A DNA stretch of 64,000 nucleotides, from contig NZ_JAMXMV010000007.1 in the NCBI RefSeq assembly GCF_024055715.1, positions 310,001 to 374,000 of the forward strand, given 5' to 3'. The translations under genes were made by a program, and so were the position numbers. Below, piece after piece: positions 13,880 through 19,466 of the stretch. The notes below the pieces were generated by a model that searched no databases, was not told where the DNA came from, and saw nothing but the letters and a program-made list of their open reading frames with translations. This DNA is from Actinoallomurus soli (GTDB taxonomy: Bacteria; Actinomycetota; Actinomycetes; Streptosporangiales; Streptosporangiaceae). The first letter of the stretch is position 1; every line of letters begins with the position of its first letter.

Positions 13880-13897
13880 GATTCCCTCAAGGGAATC
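13880..13897. promoter_or_regulatory. hairpin/palindrome at the end of the giant gene
   Basis: GATTCCC, loop TCAA, GGGAATC: a perfect 7-bp-arm inverted repeat overlapping the stop codon of the large gene and 36 bp before the NTF2-like start. No T-run follows, so it may be an operator for the NTF2-cupin pair instead of a terminator. Confidence 0.4.
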
Positions 13898-16800: not shown

Positions 16801-19466
16801 ATCTGTGGATCGGGATCGTGATGGTGCAGCACGGCGGCGCCGGCGAACGCATCCCCGTCCCGCTCCATCGCCAGCCGGAGCCGTTCCAGCTCCAGGCGCG
16901 CGATCTCCCGATCGAGGGCCTCACGTGTCCCTGCCGATCCGGTCGCGCGACCGGAGTCCGGGGCCGCGCCGGGGGCATCGGACGTGTGGGCCGGCGGCGC
17001 GGAGGGTCCCGGTTCCCGGGTCTCCGGTTGACCTGCCGGGCCGTGCGGCCGGTCCGAAAGCTCCTCATCGAGGCGAATCTCGGAGGTCCGCGACGGATCC
17101 TTCCGGCCCGCTTCGGAGGTTCCGCCGGGGCGGGATGCCGCACTGGAGCCGCGGTCCGGGGACGACGCGCCGGCGTCCGGCCGGGCCGTCTCCACCGTCG
17201 TCGCCGTCGTCGTCCCGGAGGCGGCCTCAGCCTGTACGGTCCCCGGCCGAGCGGCCTCGGGAGCGCCGGAGCGACCGGAGGCGCGGAGCGGATCTTCCCG
17301 GTCGGCCGGCCGGCCCGCGGAGGCCAGGCGATCGGCCGCCGGATCGGCCGCCGGATCGGCCGCCGGATCGGCCGCCGGGTCCGGCGTTGTGGGCACGGCC
17401 CTGGACGGCCCGTCCGGTCCCGTCCCGGCCGGCTCGGTGGGCTGCCAGAGGGCCTGAGCCTCGTTCCGGACCACGCCGGTGCGATCGTCGTTCGGGGCCG
17501 GCTCGGAGGTCGGCGAAATGGCGCCTGGCCCGGTCGGTGTCGTGGGGACGCCGCCGGGTCCGCCGGCCGGTGTGCTGGGAGCCGGGGTCATGGTGGGGGT
17601 CGTCGGCCGCACGCTCGCCAAGGTGATGCCGGCGGCTCCGGGCGGGGTGTCGTGGGATCCGGAGTAGGGCATCAGCGGACCCGGCCCTTCCGGTGTCCCG
17701 CTTGATCCGTTCGTGCTGATCGCGGGATGGGGAGCGGGGGTGTCGGTCCGAGCGGGAAGCCGACGATGCGCGGTGGCGGAGTCGGGGCCGGCTCCGGCCA
17801 GAGAGCCGGTGGATCCGCTGTGGCCGGTCCCGGACGAGGAGGGTGCCGATCCGCCGTGTCCGGTCCCGGCGGAGGTGGCGGGTGCGGTCTCCCCGCGGTC
17901 ATGGCCGCCGCCGCTGGTGGTGACGGTCGGGTCGGACGAGCCGATGACTTCGCCTCGCAGGTGGAAACCCACCCCGCCGGCTGAGACCTCGGTGTAGTCG
18001 TCTCGGGTATTGACGATGCCGTCCGCGGACACCGGCGGGACGTCGGGCCGCCCGCCCTCGTTCCCGGGCCGCCCGCCCTCGTTCCCGGGCCGGTCGCCGT
18101 CGCCGGTCGGGGGTTCGCCGCCGGCGGGGTGAGGCGCGCCGGGCAGGTGGATCCCGGCCTGTCCGAGCAGATGCCTGCCGGCCTGCCCGAACGAGCCGAG
18201 CCCGGCCATGCCGAACCCGAACTCGGCCGCGTGTTTCCAGTCGGCCCTGCCCTCGACCGCGTACTGGGCGGCGACGTTCCCGGCCGTGCCGGTGAGCCCG
18301 TTGAAGGCCAGCTGAGACGACCAGCCCCGGAGCCCGCCCGCGCCCAGCCACTTATCGCTCAACGCCGCGGCCAGGCGATCGATCCGGGCCACCTGCCTGC
18401 CGGCCTCGGCCGCACCGGCCGCGTGAGCGGCCCTGGCGCCCAGCGTCCCGGCCACCCCGTGCATCAACCCGCCCGCCAGCGCGCCCTCACCGACCGCCGT
18501 GAGGAACTCCCGCCAGCTGAACTCGCCCCGGGCGCCCTGCCCGATCAGATCCAGCACGCCGCTGTACATCACCGCCTTGGCGATCGCCAGCAAGAAGGCC
18601 TTGAGCGTCAGCCCTTCCCGCTGGATCGCCGCCAGCGCCTCCGGGATTCCCCCCGGATTCCACACGGAGATGAACAGGACCGCGGCCATGAACGCGAACG
18701 ACAACGAGAACTGCCACCGCGCTGCCTTCTTCGACGTGATCAGGTGATCGACCGAATCGGCCAGCCGATCGCAGCTGCCGGCCAGCCACAGCAGTCCGCT
18801 CTCCTCCCCACCACCCCGCAGCGCCGCGGCGAAGGAGGCGAACCGCTCCACCGCCTCCCCCGCGTTATTGTCCGTCACTCTCCGCGCGTGACCGTCCACC
18901 TCATCGGCACATCTCACGCACGCCCGCCCGACGTCCCGCAACGCATCCCGTATCCGCGCCAGGCCCTCCAGGTGCCCATCCGGCCACTGGACGCCCCCGA
19001 CCAATACCTCGAGCAAGCCGAAGAGCTGGTCATACCAAGGCGGCGCCGGATCCGAAACGGCCCATGAATCCGCCTGATCCTTCAGAACGTACGGATCGTC
19101 GACCGACGTCGCTCCCGCGTCGGCCCCCTTCGAGATCGCCGCCCCCACTGTCGCGGCCTCTTCGGCCAACGCGAACACGTGACCGGCCAACCGCAACGAC
19201 CCACCCGTCGCCTGCAGCAGATTGACCATGTCCGCCAGATCCGCCAACACCGCCCGCCGGGAGACACCGAACCCGGGCGATCCCTCCGCTCCGTTGAAGA
19301 AGGCGGCGCCGATATCGTCGCTACCCCACGCTCCCCCGGCCGCGGACAATTCATCACACAGCCAGTCCACTTTGCCCCGCAACGTCTCCGCCGCCCCGGA
19401 GACCCCGGCACCCGACGCCGTCCACGTATGCGGGACGGCGACATGGACTCCAGAGGCCACTGCCAC
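13896..19466 (-). CDS. giant WXG100-like / FHA / ADP-ribosyltransferase protein, putative polymorphic toxin
   Basis: 1856 residues. Residues 1-110 are helical with a W-x-G-like motif (GAWGSDD near 46-50), resembling type VII secretion targets. About 250-345 contain hydrophobic membrane-compatible segments. About 440-850 are Gly/Pro/Ser/Thr-rich, with PAAD repeated four times (697-712). A short Glu/Arg coiled coil (848-905) precedes an FHA phosphothreonine-binding domain (920-1012: GRSS, SRRHAVLE, GSSNGTYING). About five divergent 100-residue helical units span 1080-1615. Residues 1705-1830 are an ADP-ribosyltransferase of the pierisin/scabin type: Arg1719 in LFRGDRR, CTS at 1748-1750 in place of STS, and Q-D-E at 1787-1789. 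No signal peptide. GTG 19466 opens the frame, but GTG 19460 has better spacing to GGTGAGG. Target (DNA or protein) cannot be told; no clear immunity gene is adjacent. Confidence 0.85.
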   Translation of the reverse strand: MAVASGVHVAVPHTWTASGAGVSGAAETLRGKVDWLCDELSAAGGAWGSDDIGAAFFNGAEGSPGFGVSRRAVLADLADMVNLLQATGGSLRLAGHVFALAEEAATVGAAISKGADAGATSVDDPYVLKDQADSWAVSDPAPPWYDQLFGLLEVLVGGVQWPDGHLEGLARIRDALRDVGRACVRCADEVDGHARRVTDNNAGEAVERFASFAAALRGGGEESGLLWLAGSCDRLADSVDHLITSKKAARWQFSLSFAFMAAVLFISVWNPGGIPEALAAIQREGLTLKAFLLAIAKAVMYSGVLDLIGQGARGEFSWREFLTAVGEGALAGGLMHGVAGTLGARAAHAAGAAEAGRQVARIDRLAAALSDKWLGAGGLRGWSSQLAFNGLTGTAGNVAAQYAVEGRADWKHAAEFGFGMAGLGSFGQAGRHLLGQAGIHLPGAPHPAGGEPPTGDGDRPGNEGGRPGNEGGRPDVPPVSADGIVNTRDDYTEVSAGGVGFHLRGEVIGSSDPTVTTSGGGHDRGETAPATSAGTGHGGSAPSSSGTGHSGSTGSLAGAGPDSATAHRRLPARTDTPAPHPAISTNGSSGTPEGPGPLMPYSGSHDTPPGAAGITLASVRPTTPTMTPAPSTPAGGPGGVPTTPTGPGAISPTSEPAPNDDRTGVVRNEAQALWQPTEPAGTGPDGPSRAVPTTPDPAADPAADPAADPAADRLASAGRPADREDPLRASGRSGAPEAARPGTVQAEAASGTTTATTVETARPDAGASSPDRGSSAASRPGGTSEAGRKDPSRTSEIRLDEELSDRPHGPAGQPETREPGPSAPPAHTSDAPGAAPDSGRATGSAGTREALDREIARLELERLRLAMERDGDAFAGAAVLHHHDPDPQIAALDDAIVRRRAERDALGAPGIAGPESEVVFTAGGSEVLRVAPGHEVLLGRSSESPLYPHSRSATSVSRRHAVLEVDDEGRMWVRDIGSSNGTYINGRRIEPHTRAPLHPGDRLRLSNSYELKVPEHAPAPAEAQSRQADPAERGGAARELRHDDGSAGHENGHGPAAPEPVAHAPAAPDRGTEAAGRRVAEQYGLTSVSGQDAAHFFHALTEIVGPGGEHPLGAGPLTDLAHEVIGPDASIIDLLNLHHDAVLLGHEPWRARDRGELVEILSSAYDPPVDDAFERIGRGLARTAGMHGLTPAEARSLGMIQNHLTQGSPATRASYRRLVEVAHAAGLGDARAHEAGFGERSDREAVLRLARLVDGDSRAVMFGPEHLIERLRGEEPRLIPEPVRLPAAAGGGTSARVLADHYGLWYADGRMTRAVHDLTVLSDPGYDPARGPARDSHPLRDLARDVIGPDATVPDLLDLHEGALEMGFEPSYARSRAELADLLTLARHDLPGFRLDRQREAFRSTRDTFGIPERDDHTVRVVSALERVEVPDPGAAERDLEFAAHDGELGIGTQERMAYRGPRPGDAVLYALARGVARDLAVRDMIELYKYAEEKSFPGLRGDYEDVLAALRRAHRELGPDLLIARRIAGSLGLGKDEPTVRAVAELNHATDPGGERSLPRGVGRLGGLASQVRPGLSVTDLIAVHRHAGAEVRGRHGDLVELVRALRRADGELHPASPATQPPSALRALPRVPASPRFLRNDAGPVERRPLSAGSPPSGPIDYTAAAQRRAPGLDRWIRTYREEEEAPHYWGDSGDYWGEPMRPLEVGWRLDRNALFRGDRRGPEMIFEEGFAMPQRGYASHPELICTSRLVDTAMEFARQFRREGDDRWVYVIDAPGGYDIGGGQDEVTFIGGIDRRYIVGALRIPGDVPMRAGVTYDGRVFFPDRPQDQAEWIPNPHYRPDEESRPSTRRRDA

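Follow-up and report, generated by a model that had tools for sequence, protein, structure and literature searches.

Background

The excerpts of Zhang et al. 2012 (PMC3482391) describe polymorphic toxins exported in the WXG/LXG manner that carry the ADP-ribosyltransferase (ART) domain Tox-ART-RSE, and list Imm41 and an ADP-ribosyl glycohydrolase as partners. We have analysed a 64,000-nucleotide stretch of the Actinoallomurus soli genome (RefSeq assembly GCF_024055715.1, contig NZ_JAMXMV010000007.1, positions 310,001 to 374,000 of the forward strand; hereafter the window), in which one gene encodes a 1856-residue protein that resembles these toxins in its type VII-type N-terminus, its C-terminal ART, of R-S-E type by sequence, and the exchangeability of C-termini in its family. 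It differs from the toxins of those excerpts in having an FHA domain and a long helical region before the ART, and in that no linked antidote was found. We consider it rather probable that this protein is exported by a type VII system as an ART effector, with the FHA domain and the helical region serving to target it.

The enzyme domain has solved relatives in Scabin and ScARP (PDB 5ewk and 5zj4), with which it shares the Pfam Scabin-like domain, the Arg and QxE residues and an NPHYxP-like C-terminal end. The solved chains are 162-200 residues long, whereas the ART of the window lies within an 1856-residue multidomain protein. In the excerpts of PMC11217815, the type VII FHA domain is placed on the EssC/Tsx secretion ATPase, and EccC of T7SSa lacks FHA; the context is type VII in both cases, but the FHA domain of the window sits on a presumed substrate. 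Vorin, according to the excerpts of PMC7764402, is an ART behind an Rhs domain, and the FHA mentions there refer to the type VI protein Fha1.

Results and discussion

Layout of the protein

The gene and its parts occupy the following positions of the window.

13896..19466, minus strand: whole gene, 1856 residues, GTG start, a single uninterrupted coding frame
18147..19466, minus strand: putative N-terminal delivery module, residues 1-440; 36 other fetched proteins have related N-termini, joined in 33 of them to other C-termini
19290..19325, minus strand: G48-x-D50-x-x-G53-x3-F57-x-G59 motif, from the alignment of 37 N-termini
18636..19013, minus strand: WXG100_2-like domain, residues 152-277, Pfam PF25547 at a borderline score
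18540..18725, minus strand: two hydrophobic stretches, residues 248-275 and 286-309, from the sequence
16947..17846, minus strand: low-complexity Pro/Gly/Ala/Ser/Thr linker, about residues 541-840, by composition
16452..16658, minus strand: FHA domain, residues 937-1005, Pfam E 3.9e-16
14397..16301, minus strand: helical region, residues 1056-1690, helical being a judgement from sequence and not a prediction
15864..16301, minus strand: repeat copy A, residues 1056-1201, by self-comparison
15198..15635, minus strand: repeat copy B, residues 1278-1423, by self-comparison
14049..14318, minus strand: Scabin-like ADP-ribosyltransferase core, residues 1717-1806, Pfam PF22596
14310..14312, minus strand: Arg1719, the beta-1 Arg, from the translation
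14217..14225, minus strand: Cys-Thr-Ser 1748-1750, at the S-T-S/T motif position of the MAFFT alignment
14100..14108, minus strand: Gln-Asp-Glu 1787-1789 (QxE), from the translation

Much of this layout had been proposed in an earlier note made from the letters of this DNA. The hydrophobic segments, the Pro/Gly/Ala/Ser/Thr-rich linker (about 540-840) and the FHA domain that it named are all present, the repeats of the helical part were recovered (1278-1423 against 1056-1201, 38% identity, E 8e-14), and Arg1719, Cys-Thr-Ser 1748-1750 and Gln-Asp-Glu 1787-1789 lie exactly where it had placed them. Its WXG100-like N-terminus stands in part: a borderline match exists, but it sits at 152-277 and not at the very N-terminus, residues 1-150 holding the G-x-D-x-x-G motif. 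With a cut-off of 27 bits, PF25547 scores 21.8 bits (E 2.1e-4) on the whole protein and 24.8 bits on the first 450 residues alone, both under it, and 28.3 bits, over it, in a six-frame search.

The coding frame itself was called by a simple, home-made gene caller, which preferred it over the overlapping plus-strand frames and started it at 19460, two codons further in; GC by codon position (0.76/0.58/0.86) backs the minus-strand frame.

An effector family linked to a type VII locus

Residues 1-450 were matched in at least 13 of 100 genomes, the protein's own included, four of the 13 with short, weak matches only. From at least 45 other matches 36 relatives were fetched and nine short or weak ones dropped; these counts are lower bounds, drawn from the best 16 or fewer scored candidates per genome. 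All 36 end in a stop codon and 33 are whole, L067, L082 and L083 being open at the 5' end. In the 37 proteins thus assembled, G48, D50 and G53 are invariant in all 35 rows that have a letter there, and the C-termini fall into 20 groups (BLAST of the last 250 residues, E <=1e-3). A scan of 20 C-termini drawn from the 19 other groups gave 13 that reach a Pfam cut-off and seven that do not. The 13 comprise GH-E nuclease (two), APH (two), glutaminase, ADPrib_exo_Tox, PI3/4 kinase, sugar transferase, GT4-conflict, GT9, amidase, alpha/beta hydrolase and SAICAR synthetase. None of the other 36 proteins matched the linker (residues 440-870) at E <=1 in phmmer. A kept N-terminus with varied C-termini, for which the earlier note had suggested searching the homologues, is at the sequence level the pattern of a polymorphic effector family.

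Among the relatives, L062, L064, L075, L076 and L082 carry the type VII-type N-terminus on SAICAR synthetase, bacterial sugar transferase, glycosyltransferases and amidase.

The genome of A. soli has EccB genes in two places. On contig 33 an ESX locus holds EccB, EccC, EccD, an S8 protease (subtilase), two WXG100 proteins and, as a 2603-residue open frame, a paralogue. The N-termini of the paralogue and the window protein share 53% identity by search and 50% by alignment, and the paralogue's WXG100_2 domain scores 29.4 bits, over the cut-off. At the second place, on contig 2, EccB and WXG100_2 were tested and the remaining genes are known as gene calls. The ESX cluster that the earlier note had proposed looking for elsewhere in the genome thus exists as a full type VII locus with a paralogue, and its proposal of a type VII-type polymorphic protein is borne out as a type VII-linked family with a shared N-terminus and varied C-termini. 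Of the 51 called genes of the window 30 were scanned, and none of these is an ESX gene, so the secretion link runs through the genome and the paralogue only. Export of the 1856-residue protein by a type VII (ESX) system is likely on these sequence relationships. When profiles of residues 1-150 and 140-290 were compared with the WXG100 proteins encoded at the ESX loci, nothing of weight was found, the best match being to one small ESX-cluster protein (E 0.0057, probability 6%).

If the protein were not exported, it would be an intracellular ART acting through its FHA domain on phosphoproteins of the producer. FHA domains are commonly intracellular, no linked antidote was found, and Pfam gave no processing protease match on the 1856-residue protein, all of which would fit such a role. 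The N-terminal family, however, has a member within an ESX locus and others with nuclease and deamidase domains, and the gene belongs to the accessory genome, four of the eight genomes of the genus having close ART matches. We regard this reading as quite unlikely.

The FHA domain

FHA, in which the earlier note had conjectured a phosphothreonine switch, is a common intracellular reader of phosphothreonine, and the G-R, S-R-x-H and N-G-T-x-x-N residues are taken here to be its phosphothreonine-binding site. The ligand residues G939, R940, S957, R958, H960, N980, G981, T982 and N985 are present in the window protein, and the G-R, S-R, H, N-G-T and N positions are invariant in four of four cargo carriers. 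With the window's own FHA domain as phmmer query, a search that may miss distant FHA domains, matches were found in four of the 37 proteins, all of the ART group. The earlier note had called FHA with a Scabin-like fold in one protein unusual, and this distribution agrees with it, as does a term search of open-licence papers, in which scabin and FHA domain never occur in one paper.

One cargo on two N-terminal subtypes

Residues 871-1844 match only L077, L079 and L080 of the 36 fetched proteins, at 72, 51 and 50% identity. These three carry both the FHA domain and the helical part; the other 33 have neither, as judged with the window's own segments as phmmer queries. Within 297 genomes of the family, and among the matches listed, only the genomes of these three and of the window protein match the helical part at E <1e-80, and three more do so weakly (E 8e-5 to 9.5e-4); these are lower bounds from the best five or fewer scored candidates per genome. 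The ART end alone is matched in seven of 100 genomes, closely in the same four and remotely in three, and close ART matches occur in four of the eight genomes of the genus. The helical region has no match in Pfam and none of weight in the PDB (two chains, best E 0.08). Two further self-repeat scans printed no pair, though self-comparison shows the pair 1056-1201/1278-1423.

In a tree of the 37 N-termini, the window protein falls in a clade of 13 rows (95/97) in which the 12 remaining rows carry different cargos, while its three cargo relatives fall in a clade of eight rows (100/100) together with five other cargos. The window N-terminus is 27% identical to those of the three cargo relatives versus 50-51% to L050-L053, whereas the cargo is 50-72% identical. 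Since the window protein and its cargo relatives stand in separate N-terminal clades, the FHA-helical-ART cargo, as read from these alignments, rides another N-terminal subtype in three other genomes of the genus, and the delivery end has been exchanged.

Divergence was measured by the method of Nei and Gojobori as non-synonymous (dN) and synonymous (dS) change, dS being rough at 73% GC. Two of the genomes compared are those of Actinoallomurus iriomotensis (G002) and Actinomadura sp. DC4 (G005), both placed in the genus of the window. Against A. iriomotensis, dS is 0.69-1.1 over the FHA part, 0.07-0.29 behind it and 0.58 in the last 24 codons; against DC4, dS of the whole cargo is 0.68. A gyrase gene serves as yardstick, with dS of 0.27 and 0.25, respectively. 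Judged from sequence divergence, the drop in dS marks a second junction just behind the FHA domain, near residue 1040. The dN/dS ratio is about 0.84 for the helical part and 0.26 for the ART against A. iriomotensis, and 0.63 and 0.27 against DC4. We take these ratios to suggest that the enzyme is conserved and sits on a recognition part that changes fast.

They also bear on whether the ART is a decayed, inactive enzyme kept by chance. The S-T-S motif begins with Cys instead of Ser and a loop is shortened, which would fit decay, but the Arg, CT[S/T] and QDE residues are conserved in four of four cargo carriers, and the ART has the lowest dN/dS of the compared cargo parts against L077, L079 and L080 (0.26, 0.27 and 0.34), if not for DC4 against G006. 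Decay is in our judgement highly improbable.

The ADP-ribosyltransferase and its target

The Scabin-like family PF22596 matches residues 1717-1806 over its cut-off (E 1.6e-7, 31.7 bits against 27), and the NCBIfam model of Streptomyces ADP-ribosyltransferase matches 1709-1805 (E 6.4e-9, 35.8 bits against a cut-off of 250 for that model). In searches of the PDB, the ART domain alone matches ScARP (5zj4, E 1.8e-9) and Scabin (E 1.7e-6), and a profile of the three relatives matches the solved structures of ScARP (E 4.8e-12), Scabin (about 1e-7) and pierisin-1 (0.05). The ART-type C-terminus that the earlier note proposed is thus borne out by sequence, and the Arg, CT[S/T] and QDE of its core are kept in all four cargo carriers.

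The same note had gone on to modification of DNA or guanine nucleotides, and here the comparison does not follow it. The signature proposed for DNA-acting enzymes of the pierisin family in the excerpts of PMC7828395 comprises two Arg, an Asn, the S-T-T motif, one Trp each in the PN and ARTT loops, and QxE. In the window protein, the Arg pair corresponds by alignment to R1719 (beta-1) and R1723 (the next loop). MAFFT places CTS at the S-T-T position, whereas in the phmmer alignment the motif falls opposite residues slightly further along. By sequence alignment, the stretch before CTS, where the signature Asn of the Lc loop would stand, contains no Asn, the PN Trp position is Glu, with Trp1771 five residues further on, and the ARTT Trp position is Gly1784. 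Compared with ScARP and Scabin, the ARTT loop in front of QxE is shorter by nine residues. Of the seven signature elements, then, the Arg pair and QxE are kept, CTS is changed, and the Asn and both Trp are absent. Because these three are missing, a DNA or guanine target for this ART is not supported by the sequence.

The protein could nevertheless be a toxin that modifies DNA or guanine nucleotides in the manner of Scabin, ScARP or pierisin, in that ScARP and Scabin are its best solved relatives, QxE is kept, and the ARTT Trp is only semi-conserved among the known members described in the excerpts of PMC7828395. Against this stand the missing Lc Asn, the Glu at the PN Trp position and the short ARTT loop with Gly1784 at the place of the ScARP residue Trp159, which stacks on guanine according to the excerpts of PMC7827354. 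Such an activity seems very unlikely.

The cysteines near the core ends of the solved relatives, which presumably form disulfides, are absent from the ART of the window, and their absence would suit delivery straight into cytoplasm.

The question of an antidote

The gene downstream of the effector gene was considered as a possible antidote.

13410..13844, minus strand: next gene downstream, 144 residues, same strand, 51 bp away; antidote candidate, unsupported

It was rejected in this role. Its homologues in G004 and G057, genomes in which no cargo ART was found, are 88 and 79% identical, and in the remaining carriers of the cargo the search matched nothing in G005 or G006 and gave weak matches only in G002 (best E 8.6e-6). 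As it does not track the cargo, it appears to be a neighbour and not a partner. In all three ART relatives the next gene is convergent (62, 7 and 7 bp away), and no linked antidote was found downstream in any of them; their upstream genes were seen as gene calls and not scanned. In the family at large, the next gene lies on the same strand in 15 of 36 members and not so in 21, the three ART relatives among the latter. Without an antidote pairing, the protein is filed by homology as a member of the delivery family and not as part of a toxin-antidote pair.

The protein could still be an antibacterial type VII toxin of the ordinary sort, with its antidote gene at another place in the genome or in a producer that is not sensitive to it. 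Related N-termini do front classical toxin-antidote pairs: two GH-E nuclease members are directly followed by SUFU-type genes (131 bp away and with a 4-bp overlap, respectively), and the excerpts of PMC3482391 list SUFU pairing for Tox-GH-E. What speaks against it is that none of the three ART relatives has a linked partner downstream, that 15 members have a next gene on the same strand but these three do not, and that the window's own neighbour does not go with the cargo. We hold this explanation to be unlikely, though credible.

In the cargo pairs L055/L061 and L060/L074 the same-strand next genes look alike by eye, unaligned, and these are perhaps undescribed effector-antidote pairs.

Proposed mode of action

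In the reading we prefer, that of an exported effector, residues 1-440 (the G-x-D-x-x-G piece, the WXG100_2-like domain and the hydrophobic segment) would form a delivery module recognised by the producer's own ESX system. Behind the linker would follow the FHA domain, the fast-evolving helical repeat region and the C-terminal R-S-E-type ART. Once in the recipient, the enzyme would most likely be docked on a target by the helical region and the FHA domain, the latter binding a phosphothreonine protein, and the ART would move ADP-ribose from NAD+ to a target that is unlikely to be DNA guanine. As no antidote gene was found alongside, the target probably lies outside the producer's own kind (a eukaryotic microbe, for example), or else the FHA or helical part would restrain the enzyme at home.

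A bolder version, which we think rather unlikely, would have the exported ART read phosphothreonine in the recipient: the FHA domain and the diversifying helical repeats would choose a phosphoprotein, the ART would modify that phosphoprotein or a neighbour at a non-guanine target, and there would be no antidote because the victims would be eukaryotic microbes. If true, the kinase signalling of the victim itself would aim this type VII effector. The alternatives set out above are not all mutually exclusive with one another or with parts of the preferred explanation.

Several points weigh against the reading of an exported, FHA-guided effector with a non-guanine target. On the side of delivery, the WXG100_2 match of the 1856-residue protein is borderline, and the scanned genes of the window include no ESX gene. 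Many sister proteins carry metabolic-looking enzymes, so that 'toxin' is not certain for every member, and an antidote may be encoded elsewhere although none was found linked. On the side of the cargo, docking by the FHA domain or the helical region is a conjecture; given the far higher dS of the FHA part against A. iriomotensis, FHA need not be inherited with the ART; and the contrast in dN/dS between ART and helical part is not general, failing for DC4 against G006, the closest pair (0.62 helical, 0.59 ART). As for the enzyme, the first Ser of the S-T-S motif is a Cys, and the excerpts of PMC7828395 describe the ARTT Trp as semi-conserved and the DNA affinity of pierisin-1 as little affected by its loss, which weakens the argument about the target.

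Other Scabin-like carriers and novelty

Scabin-like matches were found in 19 of 394 genomes of the class, 17 of them over the cut-off. In the producer's own genome, a giant frame of 21,284 residues (G000:C2:222007-285858), about 6 kb from EccB, likewise has WXG100_2 near its start and a Scabin-like domain towards its end; unlike the window protein it has a further C-terminal domain there, Gln_deamidase_2, and phmmer found no similarity to the FHA domain or the helical region in it. Among the matches of the class, a 2303-residue RHS-HINT-Scabin-like protein (L135, in G545) has the Scabin-like domain as the last domain of a large polymorphic toxin, as here, but on an RHS and HINT carrier with no type VII-type N-terminus. 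Scabin-like domains on large type VII-like or RHS carriers are thus already known in kind. As far as our searches go, what is new is the cargo of FHA domain, helical region and ART, the exchange of delivery ends in front of it, and the absence of the residues that bind guanine. Term searches of open-licence papers found Actinoallomurus and type VII secretion never together, and 'FHA domain', ADP-ribosyltransferase, toxin and WXG100 together in PMC11217815 only.

The protein brings together a delivery end of the type VII kind, a domain that reads phosphoproteins and an enzyme related to pierisin, a trio that these term searches did not find together in print. It also offers a natural experiment. 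The same FHA-helical-ART cargo occurs on two delivery subtypes and related delivery ends occur with about twenty cargo types, so that delivery and action are separately testable. The locus further cautions against taking every Scabin-like domain for a DNA modifier.

Two other Scabin-like frames were seen. L138 (G415:C17:1-20000) is a giant frame of 19,630 residues from the same survey of the class, in which WXG100_2 lies close to the start and three Scabin-like domains lie within the first part, and L136 (G528) is a 1616-residue frame with a Scabin-like match.

Genomic setting

The genome measures 9.42 Mb in 60 contigs. The scanned neighbours of the gene (30 of the 51 called genes) are ordinary chromosomal ones (methyltransferase, amidohydrolase, MarR, cupin-like, DUF3145 and lipoprotein acyltransferase), with ketoacyl synthase, carboxyl transferase and gyrase genes further off in the window. 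Comparison with the sister genome G004 showed the gene to lie in a variable block.

13903..19743, no strand assigned: block absent at the syntenic place of the sister genome G004, by DNA comparison

The flanks in G004 are 90-97% identical in DNA, and 5841 bases with the gene are missing; 1234 other bases stand there, with an unrelated open frame of 317 codons and no remnant of the 1856-residue protein. The syntenic place being without the gene, the gene is accessory. Another genome, G007, shares with the window only a 48% relative of the 144-residue gene.

Several origins and settings were tried and rejected. Conserved synteny of the cargo carriers was not borne out, flank matches reaching only window genes 11-36 kb off (30511-31401 and 53992-55955) at 29-52% identity; DC4 and G006 share flanks with each other. 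A phage origin found no phage match, a plasmid origin a single plasmid record covering 17% of the query (the ART part, 31%), and for a tRNA-linked island the window contains no tRNA.

A second variable patch lies beside the effector gene: at its syntenic place G004 has no DNA that matches window positions 10266-13049. At 24774-28307, three genes stand in a row: a sigma-70-like one, a small one that weakly matches CarboxypepD_reg and one for a CHAT-domain protein.

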